In this document: positions 411-30,192 of the stretch, piece by piece
How positions within the stretch are numbered: position 1 is the first letter of the stretch
Layout: each line of letters opens with the position of its first letter
Origin: Thermoanaerobaculia bacterium
Lineage (GTDB): Bacteria > Acidobacteriota > Thermoanaerobaculia > Thermoanaerobaculales > Sulfomarinibacteraceae
Assembly (NCBI GenBank): GCA_027067575.1
Contig: JAMOVQ010000026.1
Location: 1-59,146, forward strand
Reading direction: 5' to 3'
Length of the DNA stretch: 59,146 nucleotides
Made by a program: the position numbers and the translations under genes
Notes under the pieces: generated by a model
Told to the model about the DNA's origin: nothing
The model's input: the letters and a program-made list of their open reading frames with translations, nothing else
Databases searched by the model: none

Positions 411-2336
411 ATGGCGGACTATTCGATGATTGGCCCGTTCGTGCTGTTCAAGGAGGTGGAGTCCGACGAGCTCGGCCGGCTCTACCGGGCCCGCGAGGTG
501 GACAGGGATGGGTGGCGGCGGACCGTCTGGCTCCGGGTCTTCCAGGCCGCTGGGGTGCAGGTCGAGGCGCTCCGGGAGCGGATGGCGCTCGTCAACGAGC
601 TCTCCAGCCAGCTCAAGGCCGCCAACGTGGTCTCCGGTCAGGAGCTGACCATCGTCGACGGGACGCCGGTGCTCGCCTGGGACCACGTTCCCGGCAACCT
701 CCTCTCCAGGCTGCTCGCCACGACGCGCGAGGAAGGGTTTCCTGTCCCGACGGACAACGCCCTGCTGATCATCGAGAAGATCGCCCTGGCGCTGGCCTCG
801 GGTCTGGCGTTCGAGCTCGAGGGCCAGAGCCTGATCCACGGTTTCCTCCATCCCGCCATGATCATGGTGACGAACGAGGGTGAGGCTCAGGTCTCCGGGT
901 TCGGGTTTGCCGAGCAGCTGCTCGGGATCCTCGATGATCCGGTGGCCCGCGAGCGGTGCGCCCCGTACCTGGCGCCGGAGGTCCTCCAGGCGCGCTCCAC
1001 GACCAAGCGGGGCGACGTCTACTCCCTGGGCGCCATCCTGTTCGAGCTCCTGACGGGCCAGCCGCTCCCGGCGGATCCGGCAGCCCGTGCCGAGGCCGTG
1101 GCGAATGCGCGGATGGCGCTGGAGGACGAGCCCATCCCCGACGACATCGCCGCGCTTCTCAAGCGTTCGCTGGCGGACCGCCCGGAGGAGCGGTTCAGTT
1201 CGGCCGCCGACTTCAAGAAGGAGCTGGACAAGCTGCTGTTCGGCGGCGCCTACAGCCCGACGACGTTCAACCTCGCCCTGTTCATCGACCGGCTCTTCCG
1301 GGCGGACATCGAGCAGGAGGAGAAGGAACGGATGGCGGAACAGGACCTCGATCCGGCACCGTACCTGGCGCCCGGGCCCGAGGACGAAGAGGAGGAGACG
1401 GAGCTGGCCGTGGCGAAGGCGCGGAGCCGCGCGGGGATGTGGATCGCGCTGGCGGCGGCGCTCGTGCTCGTCGCCGTCGCCCTCGTCGTCCTCGCGCCGA
1501 AGTTCCGGCAGCCTGCGGCGCCGCCGACCCCGACGCCCGAGGAGCTCGCCCGCAAGAAGGAGGCGGAGCAGAAGCGGTTCGAGGCGCTGGTCCAGGAGGA
1601 GCTGCAGCGGCTGATCGCCGAGCGCGAGGCCCAGAGTCAGAAGGAGCTCGAGCAGCGTCAGAAGGAGATCGAGAGCCTCAAGAAGAAGCTCAAGACGGTT
1701 CAGAAGCCCCAGGGGAAGCAGACGATGACGGCAGAACAGAAGCGCCAGGAGGAGGCGATCCGGGAGCAGCTCGCCCAGGCCGAGGCCGCCAAGAAGGCCC
1801 AGGAGGCGAAGCTGGAGGAGGCGCGTCAGAAGGCGCTCGAGGAGGCGCGCCGCAAGGCCGAGGCCAAGGCCGCGCAAGCGGCGACCCCCACCCCGGTGCC
1901 GAAGGCTGCGCCGACCGGCGCCCCGGCCGCCGCCCCCACCGAGGCGCCGAAGGTGGCCGCCGCGGCGTCGCCGGCCCCGGAGGCCGCCGCGCCCGCTTCG
2001 GCCGCCACCGCAACGGAGCAGATCACCGAGGGGATGTACGTGCCACCGACGGAGCTGGACACGAGTCCCGCCGTGCTCCGGACCGAGGCGCCCCACTGGT
2101 CGCGGATGGCACTCAACTCCCGGCGGCGCGGGGTGGTCATCCTCTCCGCCCGTGTCGATGCCGAGGGCCGCGTGACGGCGGTGAAGATTCTTCGGGCCGA
2201 CGACAAGGGGTTCGGGATCCCCAAGGCCGCAGCCGAGGCCGTCAAGAAGTACCTGTTCAAGCCGGGCACGAAGAACGGTGTCAAGGTGACGACGGACACG
2301 ACGGTGGCGATCCCCTACTCGTTCCGGGGACGGTAG
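411..2336 (+). CDS. Membrane pseudokinase fused to a TonB C-terminal domain
   Basis: Protein of 641 aa; ATG 411 is chosen because GGGAGGAGG lies just upstream, although the frame stays open to 369. Residues about 1-280 have a Ser/Thr protein-kinase fold (AP-YLAPEVL and GDVYSLGAILFELLTG motifs). The catalytic residues are gone: the VAIK lysine position reads WLRVF, HRD reads H143-G-F, and DFG reads G163-F-G. A membrane segment follows at about 341-363, then a Lys/Glu/Gln-rich coiled coil (about 377-490), an Ala/Pro linker, and a TonB C-terminal domain (about 558-641) with RGVVILSARVDAEGRV and the terminal IPYSF. The layout cytoplasmic pseudokinase - TM - periplasmic coiled coil - TonB suggests signal-gated energy transduction or a periplasm-spanning scaffold. 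No ExbB/ExbD or receptor gene is in the window. Confidence 0.85.
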   Translation: MADYSMIGPFVLFKEVESDELGRLYRAREVDRDGWRRTVWLRVFQAAGVQVEALRERMALVNELSSQLKAANVVSGQELTIVDGTPVLAWDHVPGNLLSRLLATTREEGFPVPTDNALLIIEKIALALASGLAFELEGQSLIHGFLHPAMIMVTNEGEAQVSGFGFAEQLLGILDDPVARERCAPYLAPEVLQARSTTKRGDVYSLGAILFELLTGQPLPADPAARAEAVANARMALEDEPIPDDIAALLKRSLADRPEERFSSAADFKKELDKLLFGGAYSPTTFNLALFIDRLFRADIEQEEKERMAEQDLDPAPYLAPGPEDEEEETELAVAKARSRAGMWIALAAALVLVAVALVVLAPKFRQPAAPPTPTPEELARKKEAEQKRFEALVQEELQRLIAEREAQSQKELEQRQKEIESLKKKLKTVQKPQGKQTMTAEQKRQEEAIREQLAQAEAAKKAQEAKLEEARQKALEEARRKAEAKAAQAATPTPVPKAAPTGAPAAAPTEAPKVAAAASPAPEAAAPASAATATEQITEGMYVPPTELDTSPAVLRTEAPHWSRMALNSRRRGVVILSARVDAEGRVTAVKILRADDKGFGIPKAAAEAVKKYLFKPGTKNGVKVTTDTTVAIPYSFRGR

Positions 2337-2476: not shown

Positions 2477-2770
2477 CTACTTCTCGACGCGCTCGCGGAG
2501 GGTCTTGCCGGGCTTGAAGTGCACGTAGTGCTTCTTCGGGATGGTGATCGTCTCACCGGTGGCCGGGTTGCGGCCCTGGCGCTCCCCGCGCTGGCGGGTG
2601 GAGAACGTCCCGAACCCCGGGATGGTCACCTTCTGGCCGGCGTCGAGCGCCGTGGCGATCAGTCCCTTGCCAGGCTGCGCGGCGAAGATGATGTCGAGGA
2701 TCTCGGCAGCCTTCGCCTGGCTGATACCGGCCTTCTTCGCGAGCTTCATTGCCATGTCGGTCTTGTTCAT
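2477..2770 (-). CDS. hup: HU-family DNA-binding protein
   Basis: Histone-like nucleoid protein of 97 aa that bends DNA and acts in the nucleoid. It shows the HU/IHF fold signatures GFGTF (core beta strand) and RNPATGETI (the DNA-intercalating arm with its proline), and it ends in a basic tail. The start is the ATG at 2770 because GGAGG sits just upstream; a longer frame to 2803 would run into the promoter. HU-type rather than IHF-type is the simplest reading, since only one subunit is seen. It is transcribed alone from a near-consensus promoter (2802-2831). Confidence 0.95.
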   Translation of the reverse strand: MNKTDMAMKLAKKAGISQAKAAEILDIIFAAQPGKGLIATALDAGQKVTIPGFGTFSTRQRGERQGRNPATGETITIPKKHYVHFKPGKTLRERVEK

Positions 2771-2801
2771 GCCAACCTCCGTATTGGTTTCATCACGAGG
2801 C

Positions 2802-2831
2802 ATTATCGGGGCGAGTTTCGCCTCCTGTCAA
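2802..2831 (-). promoter_or_regulatory. Strong sigma-70-type promoter of the HU gene
   Basis: On the minus strand: perfect TTGACA (2826-2831), an 18-nt spacer, then GATAAT (2802-2807). It predicts a leader of about 25 nt containing the GGAGG ribosome-binding site. This is the closest match to consensus in the window, as expected for an abundant protein. Confidence 0.75.
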
Positions 2832-17889: not shown

Positions 17890-17950
17890 CGGTCTCAGGA
17901 TGCCCGGACGTCCCGGGATCCATCCGGGGCCAGTCGTGCCCGGGTGTTCC

Positions 17951-17978
17951 TTGAACGGTTGTGCCGTGTTGGTACGGT
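17951..17978 (+). promoter_or_regulatory. Possible sigma-70-type promoter upstream of the giant gene
   Basis: TTGAAC (17951-17956), a 16-nt spacer, TACGGT (17973-17978). It would give a leader of about 155 nt containing two adjoining hairpins at 18011-18025 and 18025-18045. Confidence 0.35.
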
Positions 17979-18045
17979 GGGGCGCTGCCTGTTTCGTGAC
18001 GAACCGACGGGGCGGTCACTCCGCCGAAGGACCGGTGCTCCTTCG

Positions 18046-18060
18046 GGAACGGTTCTTGCT
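18046..18060 (+). promoter_or_regulatory. Sigma-54-type promoter of the giant DUF11 gene
   Basis: GGAACGGTTCTTGCT matches the -24/-12 consensus: GG at 18046-18047, ACG, then TTGCT with GC at 18058-18059, exactly 10 nt between GG and GC. The predicted start near 18071 gives a leader of about 70 nt. Confidence 0.6.
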
Positions 18061-18141
18061 TCCCCGGAATTCTGGAATCACGTCCGACCGGTCCGTGCGG
18101 CACTCGAGAGGCTGCCGGATCGTCGGATGGAGGAGGATCGA

Positions 18142-21100
18142 ATGGTCGGGAAGAATGGATCGTTGATTCGGACGGTGCTGGCGGGGCTCGGGGTCCTGAT
18201 GGCCGCTGCGGTCTGCGTGGCACAGCCGGTGCCAACGGTGACGATGGATGTGCCATCGGAGGTGATGCTGGGCGAACAGGTGTCGTTCACCGTGACCTTC
18301 GACAACACGTCGGCGACCGACCCGGGGTACGGGCCGATCATCGACCTGGTGTTCCCGGTCAACGGCGCCGATGGTGCGGCAGGGACGGACACGCCGGATG
18401 GAATCTCCTTCGTCTCCGCCTCGTACCTGGGCCAGCCCGTGGACGTGACGATCCGGACCTTTCCGGATGATGGGGGAGGCGTCGGCTGCAGGCGGCACCC
18501 CTTCTTCATGAAGCCGAATCATCGCCGGAAGTGGGTATGCGGAACTGCGGGCGACACGCTCGTCGTGCTCAAGCTTCCGTTCGGCTCCGTCGTTCCAGAC
18601 CAGCCTCCGATCACGGTGGACGTCACGGCGAATCTGTCGAACCTCGCGGATCTGCAGGTGCCGTTGCCCATTCATGCCAGGGGAGGGTTCCAGTACGGCG
18701 CCGATCCGCTCGATAACCCGTGTTGCGATTCTGTGATCGTCAATCCGGACGATTCCGACTCCTCGTCCTGGCCATCCTCCTCCGTCACCCCGATCCTCAT
18801 GCGGATCTCGAAGATCGGCCTGTCCCCCGACACCCTGGCGCCGGAGGACGAGACCACCGTCGGTCCCGGGTTCGAGCGGTGGTTCCAGATCACGGTGGAC
18901 GTGGCCGACGGTCAGACGATCACGAACCTCGACGTGACCGACATCCTCCCCGACAACGTCCAGTTCGTGGCGGTGACGGCGACGCAGGTCAACGGTTCGG
19001 ATGTCTCCACGACGGCTGTCGCGACGCCGAGCACCACGACGCCGGGTGGAACCCTGACGCGACGGTATGCAACGGTGACGGGGACGACGGGCGCCAACGA
19101 CGTGGCGCTGGTGTTCCGGTACTACGTGCCGCGTCTCGATGCCAACGGGAACGAGACGATCCCCGAGGGGTCGTGCTCCAAGGTCCTGGGGTTCAACGAC
19201 GCCGCTACGCTGGGTGACTGGGATCCGATCGATCCCCGGGATCCGTCTGGAACGGACAACGCGGGGATCGATCCCCCGGGACACGAGGCCGGGTTCTCTG
19301 GCAAGACGATCGCCGTGCAGGAAGATGCGGCCATCGTGAACGATCTCGGCGCGGCGGGGGCGACGCCCGGCGACACGGTGGAGTACATCGTGGAGTTCCA
19401 GGTCTCGGACGTGATGGCGTTCGACAGCCTCCGGCTCGAGCAGGTGATCTCGGACGGGCAGCGGTTCGACACGTCGTTCACCCCGACGATCCAGGTCAAT
19501 GAGCACGGAACCTCGACGGGACCGGCGGCGTTCGATGCGGCGAACTTCACGGTGACGGATCATTACACGGGGTCTCCATCCGCCGTGGCGCCCATCGACG
19601 GAACCCAGACCGTGGAGTTTCGTGTGTCCGACGAGATGGTGCATCAGGGGCTCGACGCCGCGGTTCTCGGAAACTGCGTGCCCGATGGCGGGACCGGAGG
19701 CGGTCCTCCCGACTGCTCGGTCTATTCCGGAGGCAAGGCGAAGGTCCGGGTGGTCTTCCGGACCATCATTCAGGATCAGTTCACCGATGACTACCCGTCG
19801 GGCGATCCCTCCGTCGATCAGGGCGATGAGCTGACCGGTGATGTGGACGTCTACGGTAACCTGCTCGACCCCGAGGATCTGACAGCGACGGGGAGCACGT
19901 GCACCGACGACTCCGATGCAGGTGTCACGATCGTGCGGGGGAACGTCACGAAGGAGGTCTATGCCATCAACGGGTCCACCTCGTTCCAGACCCCGGTGCT
20001 GGTGGCGCCGGGCGACGAGGTGACCTACCGGATCCGGTACACGCTGGCGACGTCGGATTTCGAGAGCCTGGTGGTCCGGGACTTCCTGCCGCTTCCCGTG
20101 TTCATGGCGACGGACGTGACGACGTTCACCTCCGTCGTGGATGGTTCCATCCCAGCAGCGGGCGAGGCAAAGTACGGCCCGGACGACACGTTCCACGCCT
20201 ACTCCGGAATCGACCCGACCCTTTCGACCAATGCGGCATCCAACGCCGTGGTGTTCGATTACGGGGATTTCGACTCGGCGTCGAACCAGGCGACGGAGAT
20301 CGATCTGCTGTTCACCGTCAAGGCGACGGATGAGCCGTACGCCGACGGCATGGTCCTGATCAACCAGGTCCGGGTGCACGAGGGATCGACCAACGCCGAG
20401 GAGTCGGACGACGATGCCATTGCACCCGTGACGCTCATGATGCCCCGGCTCGTCGTCCGGAAGGGGGCGTGCCAGACGGACAACCCGGACGAGCAGTACG
20501 ATCCGCCGCTGTCCGGCGGGGGGTGCCCGGGGCAGGTGACGTCCGATGACCTGGCCAACGATCCGGCGCTCTCGGATTCCGACGTGTCCGGTATCGACGT
20601 GGGCGACCACATGACGTTCTCCATGACCATCGAGAACCAGGGCGGGGCGGGAGCGTTCGACATCACGATCCACGACGTCATGCCGCCAGGGTTCTGTCTG
20701 CCCGGCTGCACCACGGCCGATCCCATGTGCGCCGCCGGAGCGTCGGGGCTCAACTTCTCGGTTGTCCGGGGAGACGGGTTCGTTCCGACGTGGGTGCCAC
20801 AGGGAACGTACAACGACGACAGGGACCTGTTCTCCAACGGCCTGATGCTCGACGATTCGGCCGGACAGCCGCTCTTCCAGCCGCACGATCCGGCGGCGGG
20901 GACCAACACCCTGACCATCAGTTACGAGCTGGAAATCTGCGACATCTCTCTCGTCCCGGGGTCGTTGCTCGCCAACCAGGGGGGTGTCAGCAGCTTCGCG
21001 AGCCGGGAGGGCGGACCGAACTTCGTCGATCCCAACAACCCCGTGGACTACACCGACCAGGCCACGATGACCCTGGCCATGCCTCAGTTCGCCAAGGCGC

Positions 21101-24100
21101 TCGTGGGGACCTCCATCACCGACTCGGTCAACGCCGCCGACGAGGTGGTGATCGGCGAGATGGTGACGTACCAGCTCACCCTCACGGTGCCCGAGGGAAC
21201 GATGCCCTCGACCCACATCGTGGACACCCTGGATCCCGGCCTGGCGTTCGTGGACGTGGTTTCCGTGGTCTATTCCTCCTCGGACCTGACATCGACCAAC
21301 ACCATCGGGATCGGTCCGAATCCGTCCAACGTCACCGTCGGAGCGAACGGATCCAGCCTCGATTTCGATTTCGGCGACCTGGTCAATGCAAACACGGACA
21401 ACACGGTGGACGAGACGGTCACCGTCGTGTACCGCGCTGTGGTGCTCAACATCGCCGCGAATCAGGCGGGGACGACGCTGGGCAACTCGGCCTCGGTCTC
21501 GTGGACCGATGGCACGCTCGGACCGGTCTCCGCCGCCGATGTGGCGGTGATCGAGCCGGCGATAGCGATCGACAAGAACGCCTCCCCGACGGCGGTCGAT
21601 GCCGGCGACGTCATCACGTACACCGTCAACGTGACGAGCCCCAACGATCCGTCGGCGGCCTCGGCGATGGACGTCGTGGTGACCGACACGCTCCCGACCG
21701 GGATGACCTACGTGGCCGGATCGCTCGGAACCGGTACCTGCGCCACGACGCCCACGGCGCTGGACGACAGCAGTGCTCCGGCCCTGACGGTGACCTGGGC
21801 CTCATTCCCACCGGGTGGCTCGTGTGAGATCACCTACCAGGCCACGGTGGATCAGAGCGTGGAACCCGGACAGGGGATGCCCAACACGGTCACGGATACC
21901 TGGACGAGCCTGCCGGGCGATCCGGGCCAGATCTCGGCCCACAACGGCGACGCCACCGAACGGAACGGTTCGGGTGGTGTCAACGACTACACGGGGACGG
22001 ACTCGGCGACGGTGACGGCCCGGAATGTCGACCCTGCCAAGTCGGTGGGGACGACCTCCGAGAGCTTCACGTCGGGAACGGACGTCGCCGTGGGTGAGGT
22101 CGTCCGGTACCGTATGGTGATCGAGCTGCCCGAGAGCACGGTGCCCGATCTGCGCCTGCAGGATGTTCTGCCAGCAAGCCTGCAGTTCATCGACGACGGC
22201 ACGGCGCGGCTCGCGCTGGTCTCCAACGGGAGTCCGATCACGTCGACGGAACCTGCCGGCTCCACGCTGGGGCTGGCACTGGGCAACGGTCCGTTCGGCA
22301 GCGGTCCGTGGGTCCAGGGGAACGATCCCACGGCGGTGACGCCGACCTTCGTGCTGCCCGACGCCAACATCGGATCCGATGGCTCTCTGACGAACGATCC
22401 GGACAACTGGGCGCCCGGGACGGACGTCTTCTTCAAGCTTGGAGATCTCGTCAATCCGGATTCCGACACCGATTCGGAATGGATCGTGCTCGAGTTCAAC
22501 GCCGTGGTGGTCAACACCGCGGACGTCAGTAACGGCACGGTGGTGAACAACTCCTACCTGGTCCTCTCGGGTTCCGACGAGCTTGCGGACTCCGGGCCCG
22601 CCGGGATTCCGTCGTTGACCGTCCGCGAACCGGCGGTGATCGACCTCGTCAAGACCGTCACGCCGACTTCCGGCGACGCCGGGGACACGGTGTCCTACCA
22701 GATCACCTGGTCCAACTCCGGGACCGCCACGGCCTGGGACACCGACCTCGTGGACGTCATCTCCTCCGGACTGGCGCTCAACGCAAGCTCTGTCACCATC
22801 ACCCTCTCGGGCGGCGCGACCGGGGCCACCGATCTGACGGCGGGCAACACGGTCCACGTCCAGGTGACCGAGATCCCCGTCGGTGGCTCGGTGACGGTGA
22901 CCTACACGGCAACGATCGAGACGAGCGTGGCGCCGGAACAGGTGCTGTCCAACTCCGTGGACCTGACCTGGACCTCGCTGCCCGGCCAGAACGGAACGAC
23001 GGGCAACCCCACGGGGTCCGATACGCCGGGTGGTCCGGGTTCGGACACGGGTGAGCGCGATGGATCCGGCGGGGTCAACGACTATTCCGCCTCGGATTCG
23101 GCCGACGTGACCATCACGTCGCCGGAGATCACCAAGACCGTGGCGTCCACGTCGGAGCCTTCCACGGGGATGAATCAGGGCGGCGTTCAGCTGCTGACCA
23201 TCGGCGAGACGGCGACGTTCTCGATCACGATCACGTTGCCCGAGGGCACCACGCCCACGGTGGTCATCACCGACTCGCTCCCGGCCAACGCCACCGGGGT
23301 CATGGAGGTGGTCTCCACCTCGGTCGACTCCATCGGCGCGAACCTGACGCCGGCCAACAGTCCGGCGGTCGTCACCATCACCGACGCCAACCTGGGCGAC
23401 GGGATCAACGACACGGTGAGCTTCGACTTCGGACAGGTCCAGAACGCGCCGGACGGCGTGGTGGACGACAACGATCGGATCACCGTGTCGGTGACGGCTC
23501 GCTTGAAGGACGTGCCCAACAACTCGAACGGCAATGTGCTGACCAACACGGCACGGCTCCAGTACGGAACGGGGCTCCAGGCGACCGACACGGCCGACGT
23601 GGAGGTGGTGGAGCCCGAGCTGGACGTCAGCAAGACGGCCTCGCCCACCACCGGCGACGCCGGGGACACCATCACGTTCACCGTCACGGTGGACCATGCG
23701 GGCACCTCGACGGCCGACGCCTTCGACCTCGTCGTGACGGATCAGATTCCCACGGACATGACCTGGGCCGGAAACGTGCAGACGGTTTCCGGACCCGCTC
23801 CGACGGTGGATACCTCCGGGTTGCCCACGGTGACGTTCTCGTGGGATGATCTCGCGCTGGGCGCGGGACCGTACACCTTCACCTTCGATGTCACACTGGA
23901 CACCACGGTCCAGCCGCAGCAGGTGATCACCAACACGGATGGCCTCACCTACGACACGCTCCCGGCGGACAACGATCCCGAGGAGCGGGACCACTCCGAC
24001 TCCGACTCGGCCAGTGTCACGATCTCGGCTCCAGGTGTGACCAAGACGGTCACATCGACCTCGGTCACGGCCACAGGGAATGGATCGGATTCGGAACCCG

Positions 24101-27100
24101 ATCTGACCATCGGTGAGCAGGTCACGTACGAGATCACCATCACGGTGCCCGAGGGCACCCTGAACCAGACGCTGGTGGTGGACGATCTGCCCACCGCACC
24201 GGGGCTTCTGGAAGTCGTCTCCTCCCAAGTCACGGCGATCGACGGTGACATGACGTCGTCCACGGGGCTCGGCGTCGGCTCGGCGGGAACGGCCTCCGAT
24301 CCCAACGGCGACGGCCGAAACGAGCGGGTGACGTTCGACTTCGGCACGCTGGTCAACGGTGTGGGCGGCTCCAACACCATCACGATCCAGGTGGTGGCCG
24401 TGGTGCCCGACGTGCCCGTCAACCAGGGCGGGCTGGACGGGCTCGTCAACACCGCGTCGGCCTCCACCTCCGGGGGCAGCGCGGTCAGCGGCACGGCCGC
24501 CGTGGACATCGTCGAGCCCGAGCTCGAGGTCACCAAGACGCTCGTCACGCCGTCCTCGCCGTTCGGCGACGCGGGCGACACGTTGACCTACCGGATCACG
24601 GTGGAGCACACCGCCGCCTCCTCGGCCGACGCGTTCGACGTGACGGTGGACGACGTCCTGCCGGTGGGACAAACCTACGTGACCGGGTCGCTCACCGTCG
24701 TCGATGGGCCTGCGCCCACCGAGGACACCTCGGGCCTCCCCGGCTCGGTCGTCTTCACCTGGCCGACCATCGCGCTGGCCGACAGCCCGGTGGTGATCGA
24801 GTACCAGGTCACGCTGGACGCCGGGGTCCATCCGGCCGAGACTCTGACCAACACGGCTCTGCTCTCCTGGGACTCGCTGCCCTCCGGGGCACCGGGCGAC
24901 GGCGGGGCCAACGATCGGGACGGGTCCGACTCGGACAACGCCGAGATCACCATCGACGCGCCGGCGCTGGTCAAGGTGACGGGGGTGTCCTCGCTCTCCG
25001 ACACCGGTCAGTCCCAGCACGATCCCACCCTGACCGACCTGGCCATCGGCGAGCAGGTGACGTACGAGATCACCGTCACGGTGCCCGAGGGTATCACCCA
25101 GTCGGCCGTCGTCACGGACTCGGTCCAGGCCGACGCCAACGGCGTGCTCGAGGTCATCGGAGCCACCGTCGTCTCCATCGGCGGCAACCTGACGACGACC
25201 CAGGCAGGCACGCCCACGTTCGCCGACAACATGCTGGGCGACGGACTCGATGACACGGTTTCCTTCGACTTCGGGGACATCACCAACACCGCGGACGGCG
25301 TCACGAACGACGACGACCGGATCGTGCTCGAGGTGACGGCGCGGGTCGTGGATCTTGCCGCCAACGCCGACGCCGACGAGCTCGTGAACTCCGCCAGTCT
25401 GACCTACGCCACAGGCCCGGCGGTGGACGACACCGCTGATATCGACGTGGTGGAGCCGGTGATGGCCATCGACAAGACCATGGGGACGCCGGTGAACGGC
25501 GTGGTGCCGATCACCGTGACGCTCTCCAACACGGGAACGGCGCCCGCGTACGACGTCCGGGTCACCGACGCCTTCGCCGCGGCCACCTGGGATACGGCGT
25601 CCATCGCGCCGGTCTCGATCCCGTCAGGGTTCACCTTCTCGGTTTCCGGTGCGCCGGGCGATGCCACGGTGACCATCGCATCGGATCCGGGAGCCTCGCC
25701 TCCGTCGTCCTCCATCGAGCCGGGTGAGGCGGTGGCGTTCACGTTCCAGGCTGCGTTCGTGGCCGACGGGGGGACTCCGGCGACGAATCCGCTGACCAAC
25801 ACGGCCACCAACGACCAGGCCACCACGCTCCCAGGTGACAACACCTCCGAGCGTGAGGAGCCCGACGTCTCCGACCAGGCGCAGCTCGCGCTGCCGTCCA
25901 TCGAGCTCGACAAGAGCTGGTCCATCGCCCCTGGCGGCGACCTGGATGGCTCGGGGACGGCCTCGCCGGGCGACATCCTGCGCTACACCATCACCGTGAC
26001 CAACTCGGGCCAGGGCGCGGCGACGAACCTCGCCATCACCGACCCGATCAACGATCCGAACCTGACACTCGTCACCGGTTCCGTCACCGCCGGCTCGGGT
26101 GCCGTGATCACGACGGGCAACAACGCCGGCGACACGGCTGTCCGGGTCGATTACGCAAGCTTCGCCGGTGGTACGAGCGACACCATCGCCTACGACGTCC
26201 AGGTGGCAGACCCCGTGGCTTCGGGGGTCTCCACACTGACCAACTGGGCCGCCGGTGATTGTGACGAACTCGACTCCGAGCCGTCCGACGACCCGTCCAC
26301 GACGGACGACGACGATCCGACCGTGGTGCCGCTCGACGCCGCTCCGGACATCGCCGTGGCCAAGGACGACGGTGTGACCGAGGTGCGCCCCGGCGACACC
26401 ATCACGTACACCGTGACGGTCTCCAACGTGGGCAACCAGGACGCCACCGGCGTCGTGCTGACCGATCCGGTTCCCTCCGGCACGGCTTTCGTCTCCGCTT
26501 CCGACGGCGGGACGGAGTCGGGCGGGACCGTGACCTGGCCTGCGTTCGATCTTGCGGCGGGCGATTCGGCCCAGCGGACCCTCGTGGTCCAGGTGAACGA
26601 CCCCGCCCCGGCGGGCCAGGCCACCGTGGCCAACACGGCTCATGCCGCCGACGACGGGGCCAACGGCACCGACCCGGATTCGGGCAACAACGATGCAACG
26701 GACACGGACACCCTGATCCAGGCGGACCTTGGGATCACCAAGGCCGATAGCCCGGATCCGGTCCGCGCCGGCGAACAGGTGACGTACACACTGACAATCG
26801 TCAACAACGGTCCGTCGGCCGAACCGAACGCCGTGGCGACGGACACACTACCGGCACAGTTCACCTTCGCCTCGGCCACGGCCAGTCAGGGCTCGTGCAC
26901 CGAAGCCGGCGGTGTGGTGACCTGCGCACTGGGCGCCATGGCCTCCGGTGCGACGGCCACCGTGACCATCGTCTGCGACGTGCCGGCGAACGTGGCAGCC
27001 GGTTCGTACACCAACACGGCCTCCGTGTCGGGCGACGAGTCCGACCCGGTCTCCACCAACGACACGGCGTCCGAGGACACCTCCGTTGTGGAGGAGGCCG

Positions 27101-30100
27101 ACCTGGCCATCACCAAGACGGACTCTCCGGATCCCGTCACGGCGGGCGAGCCGCTGACCTGGACCCTGACCGTCACCAACAACGGCCCGTCCGACGCCAC
27201 GAACGTGGTGGTCACGGACACCCTGCCCGCGGGCGTGACGTTCGACTCGGCCGACGCCGGGTGCACCGAGGCCGGCGGGACCGTCACCTGCACCGCTACG
27301 AACCTGGCGGCCGGTGACTCCGCGAGCTTCGACGTGGTGGTCACGGTGGATCCCTTCACCACGGGCACCATCCAGAACGCAGCCTCCGTGACGGCCGACC
27401 AGACCGACACCGACACCACCAACGACACCGACGACGAGGACACCGCCGTGGAGACGCGGGCGGACCTCTCGGTGGTCAAGGACGCTCCGGCGACAGTGGC
27501 TCGCGGCGACGATCTGACCTACACCATCACGGTAGCCAACGCGGGACCGTCCGATGCGGAGAACGTCACGCTCTTCGATCCGACACCGGGCGGACTGACG
27601 TTCGTCTCCGCCACGGCGCCGTGCACGGGCGGGTTCCCGTGCGACCTCGGCACCCTGGCCGCGGGCGCGTCGGTGACCCTGACGGCAACCTACACCGTCC
27701 CGGCGGACTACTCAGGGGCCGATCCGATCCTCAACACGGCCTCGGTGGCCACGGACACCGTGGACACCGACTCGACGAACAACTCCGACGACGGGACCAC
27801 GGCAGTGGACCGGACGCCCGAGTGTGACGTCTCGGTGGACAAGACCGGACCGCCCTCGGCGGCGGTGGGTTCCACGGTGACGTACACGCTGGTGGCATCC
27901 AACGCCGGCCCCGACGCCGCGGCGGACGTGGTGCTCGACGACCCGGCGCCGGCGGGGTTGACCTTCGCCTCGGCCGACGGGCCGTGCGCTGGCGGGTTCC
28001 CGTGCACCCTCGGGACGCTCGATCCGGGGCAGACCGTGACGGTCCACGCGACCTACGACATCCCGGCGTCCTACACGGGCTCCGACATCACGAACACGGC
28101 CACGGTGACCACCACGACGGACCAGACCGACACCACCAACGACTCGGACGACGAGACCACACCCATCGGGGCCGACCCCGTGGACCTCGTGGTGGACAAG
28201 CAGGGGCCCACGGCGGCCAACCCCGGTGACGACATCACCTACACCATCACCGTGACCAATCGCGGCCCCGGCGACGCCACGGGCGTGACCGCAACGGACA
28301 CCTTCCCCGGCGACGTCACCTGGGTCTCCGACAGCTGCGGCAACGACTTCGCCGACGGCGTCTGGAACATCGGGAACCTTGCCGCCGGTGACTCGGTGAC
28401 CTGTGAGATCACGGCCCACGTGGATCCCAATGCGGCGGGGCCGCAGACCAACAGCGTGACGGTCTCGGCCAACGAGGACGACAGCGACACGAGCAACAAC
28501 ACCGACGACACCATCACGGGGCTCGGTGCCGAGGCCGCCGACGTGGCCGTCGTCAAGACCGGCCCGGCCCGGACCTACCCGGGGAGCGACCTGGTCTACA
28601 CCCTGACCGTGACCAACAACGGTCCGGGGCTTGCTGCCAACGTGGTGCTCGACGATCCCACCCCGACGGGACTGACCTTCGTCTCGGCGTCGGCGCCGTG
28701 CGCTGGCGGGTTCCCGTGCACCCTGGGCAACCTGACCTCGGGTTCCTCGGTCTCGATGAGCGTCACGTTCCAGGTTCCGACGAACTACTCGGGTCCCGAC
28801 CCCATCGTCAACACGGCCTCGGTGACCACGGACTCCCAGGATGCCGACGCTGGAAACGACACCGACGACGCCTCGACGGACTACGTGCCAGAGGCCGACG
28901 CTTCCATCGACAAGGACGACGGTCAGACCACCGCCGTCCCGGGCACGACGATCACGTACACCATCACCGTGGGGAACGCCGGTCCTGGAGAGATCGTCGG
29001 TGGTACCGTCACGGACACCTTCCCGGCGATCCTGACCGGGATCTCCTGGACCTGCACGGCGTCGGCCGGCAGCTCCTGCACGGCCTCCGGCACGGGCGAC
29101 ATCGCCGACACGGTGACGATCCTGCCGAACGGCACGCTGACCTACACGGTCACCGCGACCATCGTGCCCGACGCCACCGGAAACCTCGTCAACCAGGCGA
29201 CGGTCACGCTTCCCAACGGCATGACCGATCCGGACCCGGCCGACAATACCGACGACGACACGGACACACTGACGCCTCAGACCGATCTGACCATCGTCAA
29301 GACCGACTCGCCCGACCCGGTGCTCGAGGGTTCGAACCTGACCTGGACGCTCGACGTCACCAACAACGGCCCGTCGGACGCCACCGGTGTGACGGTGACC
29401 GACCCGCTGCCGGCCGGCGTGGCGTTCCAGTCGGCCACGGCCAGCCAGGGCACCTGCTCCGAGACCGGTGGCGTGGTCACCTGCGACCTCGGCGACATGG
29501 CCGCCGGGACCACGGCCCAGGTCCAGATCGTCGCCATGGTGGACTGGAACGAGCCGGGTCCGATCCAGAACTCGGCCTCGGTCTCCGGTGACCAGGACGA
29601 TCCGGACGGCACCAACGACACGGACGACGAGCCGACGGACGTGCTGTACAGCCAGCTCGACGTGCTCAAGACCGTGTCGCCGCCGCCGGACGGCGAGGCG
29701 TACCGCCCCGGGGACGTGATCACCTGGACCATCGTCACCACCAACTCGGGCAACAGCCCGGCGGCGAACGCCATCCTGGGCGATCCGTTGCCGGTCGGGG
29801 CCGCCTACGTCCCCGGGTCGCTGACCCTCGACGGGGTGGCGCAGACCGATGCCGTGGACGGCGACGCCGGTTCGTACGACGGCGCCACGCGGACCGTGAC
29901 GGTGGACCTGGCACCGGTTCCTGCCAACGGCGGAACCCGGACCATCACCTTCCAGACCGAGCTCGTCGGGTACACGGGCAACCCGCCGACGACGATCTGG
30001 AACCAGGCCACGGTGGACACCCCCGGCGGCACGGTTCCCTCGGACGACCCGGACACCTCGGAGAACGACGATCCGACGGACGTCACCATCGAGTCGGTTC

Positions 30101-30192
30101 CGGCGATCCCCGCCCTGGGGACCGGGGGTGCGGCCGGGTTCGTGCTTCTGCTGATCCTGGCCGGCCTCGCGGTGCTCCGCCGGGTCCACTGA
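18142..30192 (+). CDS. Giant secreted DUF11-repeat protein with C-terminal sorting-type tail
   Basis: Protein of 4,016 aa. ATG 18142 is chosen for AGGAGG at 18131-18136. A signal peptide (LIRTVLAGLGVLMAAAVCVAQ) is followed by about 950 less regular residues. Residues about 980-2440 alternate two beta-domains: type A (IGEQVTYEITVTVPEG; at nt 21090, 22030, 23130, 24030, 24965) and type B (GDAGDTITFTVTV; at 21560, 22640, 23615, 24520). Residues about 2440-3960 are 12 DUF11 repeats of about 120 aa (DSPDPVTAGEPLTWTLTVTN type). The tail (3986-4016) is IPALG, a hydrophobic helix and RR, like IPTL/PEP-type sorting signals but without the tryptophan. It is very rich in Asp and Thr and poor in Lys and Cys. 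It is likely an anchored adhesin, fibre or S-layer-like protein, possibly stabilised by isopeptide bonds or calcium. Confidence 0.9.
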   Translation: MVGKNGSLIRTVLAGLGVLMAAAVCVAQPVPTVTMDVPSEVMLGEQVSFTVTFDNTSATDPGYGPIIDLVFPVNGADGAAGTDTPDGISFVSASYLGQPVDVTIRTFPDDGGGVGCRRHPFFMKPNHRRKWVCGTAGDTLVVLKLPFGSVVPDQPPITVDVTANLSNLADLQVPLPIHARGGFQYGADPLDNPCCDSVIVNPDDSDSSSWPSSSVTPILMRISKIGLSPDTLAPEDETTVGPGFERWFQITVDVADGQTITNLDVTDILPDNVQFVAVTATQVNGSDVSTTAVATPSTTTPGGTLTRRYATVTGTTGANDVALVFRYYVPRLDANGNETIPEGSCSKVLGFNDAATLGDWDPIDPRDPSGTDNAGIDPPGHEAGFSGKTIAVQEDAAIVNDLGAAGATPGDTVEYIVEFQVSDVMAFDSLRLEQVISDGQRFDTSFTPTIQVNEHGTSTGPAAFDAANFTVTDHYTGSPSAVAPIDGTQTVEFRVSDEMVHQGLDAAVLGNCVPDGGTGGGPPDCSVYSGGKAKVRVVFRTIIQDQFTDDYPSGDPSVDQGDELTGDVDVYGNLLDPEDLTATGSTCTDDSDAGVTIVRGNVTKEVYAINGSTSFQTPVLVAPGDEVTYRIRYTLATSDFESLVVRDFLPLPVFMATDVTTFTSVVDGSIPAAGEAKYGPDDTFHAYSGIDPTLSTNAASNAVVFDYGDFDSASNQATEIDLLFTVKATDEPYADGMVLINQVRVHEGSTNAEESDDDAIAPVTLMMPRLVVRKGACQTDNPDEQYDPPLSGGGCPGQVTSDDLANDPALSDSDVSGIDVGDHMTFSMTIENQGGAGAFDITIHDVMPPGFCLPGCTTADPMCAAGASGLNFSVVRGDGFVPTWVPQGTYNDDRDLFSNGLMLDDSAGQPLFQPHDPAAGTNTLTISYELEICDISLVPGSLLANQGGVSSFASREGGPNFVDPNNPVDYTDQATMTLAMPQFAKALVGTSITDSVNAADEVVIGEMVTYQLTLTVPEGTMPSTHIVDTLDPGLAFVDVVSVVYSSSDLTSTNTIGIGPNPSNVTVGANGSSLDFDFGDLVNANTDNTVDETVTVVYRAVVLNIAANQAGTTLGNSASVSWTDGTLGPVSAADVAVIEPAIAIDKNASPTAVDAGDVITYTVNVTSPNDPSAASAMDVVVTDTLPTGMTYVAGSLGTGTCATTPTALDDSSAPALTVTWASFPPGGSCEITYQATVDQSVEPGQGMPNTVTDTWTSLPGDPGQISAHNGDATERNGSGGVNDYTGTDSATVTARNVDPAKSVGTTSESFTSGTDVAVGEVVRYRMVIELPESTVPDLRLQDVLPASLQFIDDGTARLALVSNGSPITSTEPAGSTLGLALGNGPFGSGPWVQGNDPTAVTPTFVLPDANIGSDGSLTNDPDNWAPGTDVFFKLGDLVNPDSDTDSEWIVLEFNAVVVNTADVSNGTVVNNSYLVLSGSDELADSGPAGIPSLTVREPAVIDLVKTVTPTSGDAGDTVSYQITWSNSGTATAWDTDLVDVISSGLALNASSVTITLSGGATGATDLTAGNTVHVQVTEIPVGGSVTVTYTATIETSVAPEQVLSNSVDLTWTSLPGQNGTTGNPTGSDTPGGPGSDTGERDGSGGVNDYSASDSADVTITSPEITKTVASTSEPSTGMNQGGVQLLTIGETATFSITITLPEGTTPTVVITDSLPANATGVMEVVSTSVDSIGANLTPANSPAVVTITDANLGDGINDTVSFDFGQVQNAPDGVVDDNDRITVSVTARLKDVPNNSNGNVLTNTARLQYGTGLQATDTADVEVVEPELDVSKTASPTTGDAGDTITFTVTVDHAGTSTADAFDLVVTDQIPTDMTWAGNVQTVSGPAPTVDTSGLPTVTFSWDDLALGAGPYTFTFDVTLDTTVQPQQVITNTDGLTYDTLPADNDPEERDHSDSDSASVTISAPGVTKTVTSTSVTATGNGSDSEPDLTIGEQVTYEITITVPEGTLNQTLVVDDLPTAPGLLEVVSSQVTAIDGDMTSSTGLGVGSAGTASDPNGDGRNERVTFDFGTLVNGVGGSNTITIQVVAVVPDVPVNQGGLDGLVNTASASTSGGSAVSGTAAVDIVEPELEVTKTLVTPSSPFGDAGDTLTYRITVEHTAASSADAFDVTVDDVLPVGQTYVTGSLTVVDGPAPTEDTSGLPGSVVFTWPTIALADSPVVIEYQVTLDAGVHPAETLTNTALLSWDSLPSGAPGDGGANDRDGSDSDNAEITIDAPALVKVTGVSSLSDTGQSQHDPTLTDLAIGEQVTYEITVTVPEGITQSAVVTDSVQADANGVLEVIGATVVSIGGNLTTTQAGTPTFADNMLGDGLDDTVSFDFGDITNTADGVTNDDDRIVLEVTARVVDLAANADADELVNSASLTYATGPAVDDTADIDVVEPVMAIDKTMGTPVNGVVPITVTLSNTGTAPAYDVRVTDAFAAATWDTASIAPVSIPSGFTFSVSGAPGDATVTIASDPGASPPSSSIEPGEAVAFTFQAAFVADGGTPATNPLTNTATNDQATTLPGDNTSEREEPDVSDQAQLALPSIELDKSWSIAPGGDLDGSGTASPGDILRYTITVTNSGQGAATNLAITDPINDPNLTLVTGSVTAGSGAVITTGNNAGDTAVRVDYASFAGGTSDTIAYDVQVADPVASGVSTLTNWAAGDCDELDSEPSDDPSTTDDDDPTVVPLDAAPDIAVAKDDGVTEVRPGDTITYTVTVSNVGNQDATGVVLTDPVPSGTAFVSASDGGTESGGTVTWPAFDLAAGDSAQRTLVVQVNDPAPAGQATVANTAHAADDGANGTDPDSGNNDATDTDTLIQADLGITKADSPDPVRAGEQVTYTLTIVNNGPSAEPNAVATDTLPAQFTFASATASQGSCTEAGGVVTCALGAMASGATATVTIVCDVPANVAAGSYTNTASVSGDESDPVSTNDTASEDTSVVEEADLAITKTDSPDPVTAGEPLTWTLTVTNNGPSDATNVVVTDTLPAGVTFDSADAGCTEAGGTVTCTATNLAAGDSASFDVVVTVDPFTTGTIQNAASVTADQTDTDTTNDTDDEDTAVETRADLSVVKDAPATVARGDDLTYTITVANAGPSDAENVTLFDPTPGGLTFVSATAPCTGGFPCDLGTLAAGASVTLTATYTVPADYSGADPILNTASVATDTVDTDSTNNSDDGTTAVDRTPECDVSVDKTGPPSAAVGSTVTYTLVASNAGPDAAADVVLDDPAPAGLTFASADGPCAGGFPCTLGTLDPGQTVTVHATYDIPASYTGSDITNTATVTTTTDQTDTTNDSDDETTPIGADPVDLVVDKQGPTAANPGDDITYTITVTNRGPGDATGVTATDTFPGDVTWVSDSCGNDFADGVWNIGNLAAGDSVTCEITAHVDPNAAGPQTNSVTVSANEDDSDTSNNTDDTITGLGAEAADVAVVKTGPARTYPGSDLVYTLTVTNNGPGLAANVVLDDPTPTGLTFVSASAPCAGGFPCTLGNLTSGSSVSMSVTFQVPTNYSGPDPIVNTASVTTDSQDADAGNDTDDASTDYVPEADASIDKDDGQTTAVPGTTITYTITVGNAGPGEIVGGTVTDTFPAILTGISWTCTASAGSSCTASGTGDIADTVTILPNGTLTYTVTATIVPDATGNLVNQATVTLPNGMTDPDPADNTDDDTDTLTPQTDLTIVKTDSPDPVLEGSNLTWTLDVTNNGPSDATGVTVTDPLPAGVAFQSATASQGTCSETGGVVTCDLGDMAAGTTAQVQIVAMVDWNEPGPIQNSASVSGDQDDPDGTNDTDDEPTDVLYSQLDVLKTVSPPPDGEAYRPGDVITWTIVTTNSGNSPAANAILGDPLPVGAAYVPGSLTLDGVAQTDAVDGDAGSYDGATRTVTVDLAPVPANGGTRTITFQTELVGYTGNPPTTIWNQATVDTPGGTVPSDDPDTSENDDPTDVTIESVPAIPALGTGGAAGFVLLLILAGLAVLRRVH

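Follow-up and report, generated by a model that had tools for sequence, protein, structure and literature searches.

The window analyzed here (the whole stretch of 59,146 nucleotides, on contig C26, from a member of the Thermoanaerobaculia, phylum Acidobacteriota) encodes near its start a 641-amino-acid protein, P0001, in which a kinase fold with replaced catalytic residues is joined across the membrane to a TonB C-terminal domain. We read P0001, with a probability of about 0.5, as an envelope-spanning, noncatalytic pseudokinase receptor or scaffold that would tie cell wall growth to the cytoplasm. This reading is favored because the dead residues are conserved, the protein is kin to an active sister kinase, its gene is linked to mltG, and neither an ExbB contact nor linkage to exb genes was observed.

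Architecture of P0001

The open reading frame begins with an ATG at 411, 3' of a GGAGG (GGAGGAGG), and its stop codon ends at 2336. In Pfam, the Pkinase model (53 bits) and the TonB_C model (42 bits) each matched above the cut-off. The features of the gene and its surroundings were as follows.

411..2336, forward strand: pseudokinase, transmembrane helix, helical rod, and TonB_C protein P0001, 641 amino acids (open reading frame, Pfam, AlphaFold2)
411..1235, forward strand: pseudokinase domain, residues ~1 to 275, with K42R, R144G, D145F, N150M, and D163G (Pfam, alignment, AlphaFold2)
1236..1343, forward strand: hallmark post-kinase helical element, residues ~276 to 311, GGAYSPTTFNLALFIDRLFRADIEQE (AlphaFold2, conservation)
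1434..1493, forward strand: transmembrane helix, residues ~342 to 361, with Ser-x3-His absent (AlphaFold2, motif scoring)
1536..1883, forward strand: long helices, residues 376 to 431 and 441 to 491, a probable periplasmic coiled coil (AlphaFold2)
1884..2030, forward strand: Ala/Pro-rich linker, mostly of low confidence (AlphaFold2 pLDDT of <50 at residues 495 to 533)
2031..2333, forward strand: TonB C-terminal-like domain, residues ~541 to 641 (Pfam, AlphaFold2, Foldseek)
2477..2803, reverse strand: HU-type DNA-binding protein, convergent to the P0001 gene and also a neighbor of some orthologues

Alignment to an intact kinase encoded elsewhere in the window genome placed R42 (VWLRV) at the position of the beta-3 lysine. 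The HRD motif was replaced by HGF (residues 143 to 145), with G144 for its arginine and F145 for the catalytic aspartate; M150 stood for the metal-binding asparagine, DFG had become GFG (residues 163 to 165), and two of the three P-loop glycines were lost. The APE motif (residues 188 to 190) and the structural arginine (R261) were retained. The sequence-only reading had called this a dead kinase whose lysine and two aspartates were replaced while the fold and APE remained, and alignment, Pfam, and AlphaFold2 bore it out. To judge from its residues, P0001 is probably incapable of phosphotransfer.

In the AlphaFold2 model, built with 51 sequences, both the kinase fold (residues 1 to 311; pLDDT of ~96) and the C-terminal domain (residues 545 to 640; pLDDT of ~97) were predicted with high confidence. 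Bacterial PknI, PknA, and Stk1 ranked at the top of the Foldseek matches to the whole model, and the top nine matches to the C-terminal domain alone were all solved TonB C-terminal domains (E values of 3e-6 to 7e-4; TM-scores to the target of 0.66 to 0.80). The YP motif that opens the TonB fold was replaced by HW in P0001. Pfam, AlphaFold2, and Foldseek thus agreed with the earlier proposal of a transmembrane helix followed by long helices and a terminal TonB fold; in the model, the helices spanning residues 376 to 491 likely form the coiled coil that it had included.

The dead state and the active sister kinase

Whole-genome searches recovered a full-length match to P0001 in most of 60 relatives. 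Conservation of the three substitutions was confirmed in a main alignment of 30 sequences from two families (P0001 and 29 relatives at 38 to 56% identity), where HRD was replaced by HGF and the DFG aspartate by glycine in all 30, and the lysine by arginine in 28. More distant members across the class had all lost the HRD and DFG aspartates and retained HG at the catalytic loop, except for one with LG (L055). A profile search of 297 genomes of the phylum yielded strong matches in 83; among the 20 loci read from other classes, 19 encoded dead kinases and one (L136) encoded the active sister described below. The pseudokinases of other classes had decayed further, with even APE partly lost. No orthologue that we read had intact catalytic residues, which were confined to a separate paralogue. 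Because the catalytic residues are lost class-wide and beyond the class, the dead state is old and has been maintained across several classes of the phylum, rather than being a local decay. One relative with a genome of 2.0 Mb carried a tandem pair of pseudokinase-TonB_C genes, the second more diverged (L083; G037:C60:1555-5597).

The most conserved 20-residue stretch of the family (residues ~272 to 295) lies directly C-terminal of the C-lobe, outside the old active site, and together with the next helix reads (Y)SPTTFNLAFFMHxLFRxEIE. Nearly all of the pseudokinases read, from several classes, carry this TTFNLAFF element; within the 1.04 Mb of DNA searched, it was absent from every active kinase, the active sister included. 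Such a pattern, with the strongest constraint outside the old active site and no counterpart in the active sister, is what would be expected of a docking surface, and we infer that the element is one.

The same genomes encode a second kinase, transmembrane helix, and TonB_C protein of ~930 to 1,170 amino acids, with intact HRDVSPQN, DFG, and AIK motifs. The placement of a pseudokinase N-terminal to a TonB domain, remarked on from the sequence, is therefore less unusual than had been thought, because an active kinase with this architecture occurs alongside it. In the window genome, this active sister (P0002, G000:C59) shares with P0001 the order of kinase, transmembrane helix, linker, and TonB_C and is nearest to it in the kinase tree; it differs in its intact catalytic residues, an extra N-terminal receiver-like domain, and the lack of a TTFNLAFF element. 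In that tree, which was made by a quick method with other kinases sampled from one genome only, one branch set all pseudokinases apart, the nearest group to them was formed by the active kinase-TonB_C proteins, and the 12 other kinases of the window genome lay on the far side of a branch with an SH-aLRT support of 100. The simplest reading of these sequence relationships would be one old duplication of a kinase, transmembrane helix, and TonB_C protein, followed by loss of catalysis in one copy. The TonB_C domains of the two proteins can also be exchanged: in one pseudokinase (G008; L014:1501-3378), the kinase half was 59% identical to that of P0001, whereas TonB_C matched the active sister of the window genome at 65% identity and P0001 at 32%, indicating a natural domain exchange. 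At the N terminus of the active sister (L087:5669-8446), the phospho-acceptor aspartate of the receiver-like domain was replaced, mostly by Ser or Thr, and the acidic pocket read E-x-E (IEYEPRY) in nearly all relatives read; this sister thus looks like a pseudo-receiver placed ahead of an active kinase, transmembrane helix, and TonB_C.

Linkage to mltG

The conserved neighbors of P0001 orthologues were ruvX, mltG, lptD, and a thiolase gene. mltG (yceG, encoding an endolytic transglycosylase) immediately preceded the pseudokinase gene on the same strand, 13 to 383 bp away, in 31 of the 33 main copies outside family f2, a count that spans nine families, all within the class. In nearly all mltG-pseudokinase loci of the class, ruvX (yqgF) was found upstream of mltG. 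Family f2 (G020 to G036) kept the pseudokinase and had no mltG (PF02618) in any of the 13 genomes tested; ruvX was immediately upstream of the pseudokinase in all 14 of its loci. Outside this family, mltG was near-universal in the class. Genus g22 had mltG without a pseudokinase-TonB_C protein, and mltG did not adjoin the pseudokinase gene in the loci read from other classes. Given these three exceptions, MltG is no obligate partner: the linkage is strong but class-bound, and it may reflect position only.

In the window, the P0001 gene lies 410 bp from the end of C26. In the same genome, contig C18 ends with mltG, ruvX, and the thiolase gene in the expected orientation, consistent with adjacency of mltG to the P0001 gene; no overlap between the ends of C18 and C26 was found on an attempted join. 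Between the end of C26 and the P0001 gene, the window carries an 82-nucleotide direct repeat (6 to 87 and 143 to 224; 85% identical; spacing of 137), which may have caused the assembly to break there.

Proposed role and comparison with known systems

In the scaffold reading, the pseudokinase and its TTFNLAFF helices would form the docking site for a partner in the cytoplasm, perhaps the active sister kinase or a cell wall synthesis protein, the helical rod would carry TonB_C through the periplasm, and TonB_C would bind peptidoglycan or an outer membrane protein. P0001 would in this way tie peptidoglycan growth or strand termination (by MltG) to the cytoplasm through binding rather than phosphorylation, as does the mycobacterial MviN pseudokinase, a target of phosphorylation by PknB that recruits FhaA, an inhibitor of peptidoglycan synthesis (PMC12599244). 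We infer the partner docking, the periplasmic ligand, and the tie to MltG activity; MltG is among the PknB-dependent phosphoproteins of Streptococcus thermophilus (PMC6593474).

Of the two roles offered by the sequence-only reading, a scaffold spanning the periplasm fits better, control of TonB work by cytoplasmic binding is not supported, and P0001 is more likely a cell envelope scaffold or sensor than a nutrient uptake motor. An energy transducer, working as a TonB with ExbBD on outer membrane receptors and gated by the cytoplasmic pseudokinase, would account for the single transmembrane helix and for the genuine TonB fold, whose nearest matches are TonB domains solved with receptors, and ExbD proteins are encoded in the window genome. 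However, Ser16 and His20 of the transmembrane helix of Escherichia coli TonB contact ExbB (PMC12215075), and Ser-x3-His was found in this helix in none of the 50 family members scored; two TonB-like proteins of the window genome encoded near exbD carry SIVLH (C109) and VALH (C175) there. The linked exbB/exbD that P0001 might have been expected to have was likewise not seen: exbD occurred in the window genome only on C54, C109, and C175, with other TonB genes next to it on two of these contigs, and not on C26, and the gene neighbors are instead mltG and ruvX. With the YP motif also lost, such a motor is in our estimation quite improbable. P0001 shares the fold of its C-terminal domain with the TonB of ExbBD systems yet differs in its large cytoplasmic pseudokinase as well as in the missing Ser-His motif and exbBD linkage. 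The presence of TonB_C is in itself no evidence of ExbBD-driven uptake, because the active kinase of the window genome and a BlaR1-like (M56) membrane protein also end in one; the latter (L003; G000:C72) is another receptor with a TonB_C outer domain.

Alternatively, P0001 might be the allosteric partner of the active sister, the two forming a pair of dead and live receptors like HER3 and HER2 in which the dead member switches the live kinase on or holds it back, and MltG would have no special part. Such a role finds some basis in the common architecture of the two proteins, their neighboring places in the kinase tree, and the TonB_C exchange in G008. In the phylum profile search, moreover, a second match of >900 amino acids at an E value of <1e-60 accompanied the pseudokinase in about 34 genomes (counted by eye). 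At the same threshold, however, several pseudokinase genomes, including those of family f34, had no close active sister, and G109 had the active kinase only, and we regard this role as rather doubtful. We are about as hesitant over a broader proposal, in which the phylum would hold a dead/live pair of envelope-spanning kinase-TonB_C receptors, the pseudokinase serving as a signaling hub through TTFNLAFF and coupling MltG strand termination to the cytoplasm, with TonB_C as a cell wall or outer membrane sensor replacing PASTA. Least probable, and very much so, is a kinase fold turned to another, nucleotide-using reaction (as in SelO and SidJ): the arginine held at the beta-3 lysine position in at least 90% of 51 sequences and the HG held at the catalytic loop might hint at one, but both metal ligands (the DFG aspartate and the catalytic-loop asparagine) and two P-loop glycines are gone, and decay has gone further in other classes, where APE is partly lost.

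The envelope scaffold that we favor has counterparts among known systems, and P0001 would act in the manner of MviN or the PASTA kinases although it is a member of neither group. The MviN/MurJ-fused pseudokinase of Mycobacterium (ActPs3) is, like P0001, cytoplasmic and membrane bound with three catalytic motifs lost; it is tied to peptidoglycan synthesis and acts by recruitment (PMC12599244), as proposed here for P0001. In contrast, the MviN pseudokinase is joined to a membrane protein of the flippase type and its activation loop carries a deletion, whereas P0001 has one transmembrane helix followed by a TonB_C rod and retains an activation segment with APE. The ActPs3 motifs (VALT and Lsidhpsr) were not found in P0001, which has WLR, HGFLHP, and an intact GFG-to-APE segment, nor were those of GLW pseudokinases (GLW for HRD and LLLL/W at beta 3), for which P0001 has HGF and VWLRV (PMC12599244); some class members carry HGLVWP, in a register other than that of GLW. 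PASTA kinases (PknB, StkP, and Stk1) share the order of kinase fold, transmembrane helix, and outer sensor, and StkP and PknA/B were the closest kinase structures to P0001 by sequence profile; PASTA kinases have been linked to MltG phosphorylation in Streptococcus (PMC6593474). P0001 differs in its dead kinase and in having TonB_C in place of PASTA repeats: no PASTA domain was matched by Pfam, and the NCBIfam PknB_PASTA model scored 89 bits against a cut-off of 450. EssB/YukC of type VII secretion, which works as a scaffold, also has a dead cytoplasmic kinase fold and one transmembrane helix (PMC12599244), but its outer part is different, and no secretion genes were seen in the neighborhoods of the P0001 family loci read. 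Models of the anti-phage kinases PD-T4-6 and MAD6 matched P0001 only as generic kinases, and that identity was rejected. Plasmid records yielded generic kinases only, and a peptide-pattern scan of public genomes returned a single, unrelated kinase.

Neither TonB nor Acidobacteria is mentioned in a review from 2025 that covers families of bacterial pseudokinases (ActPs1 to ActPs3, GLW, CP1, DYD, and DLHK; PMC12599244), and none of the motifs compared (ActPs3, GLW, CP1, and DLHK) fits P0001. No pseudokinase with a TonB domain was found in the literature searched, which omits most subscription journals. Membrane pseudokinase scaffolds are thus already known, while the TonB_C architecture and this family appear undescribed in that literature. 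A function is known for few bacterial pseudokinases. The P0001 family is old, widespread in the phylum, and recognizable by a diagnostic motif outside the active site; its usual adjacency to mltG in the class makes pseudokinase control of the Gram-negative envelope a hypothesis that can be tested. Elsewhere in the window (17944 to 30189), a 4,082-amino-acid open reading frame rich in DUF11 and Ig-like repeats encodes a giant surface-type protein.
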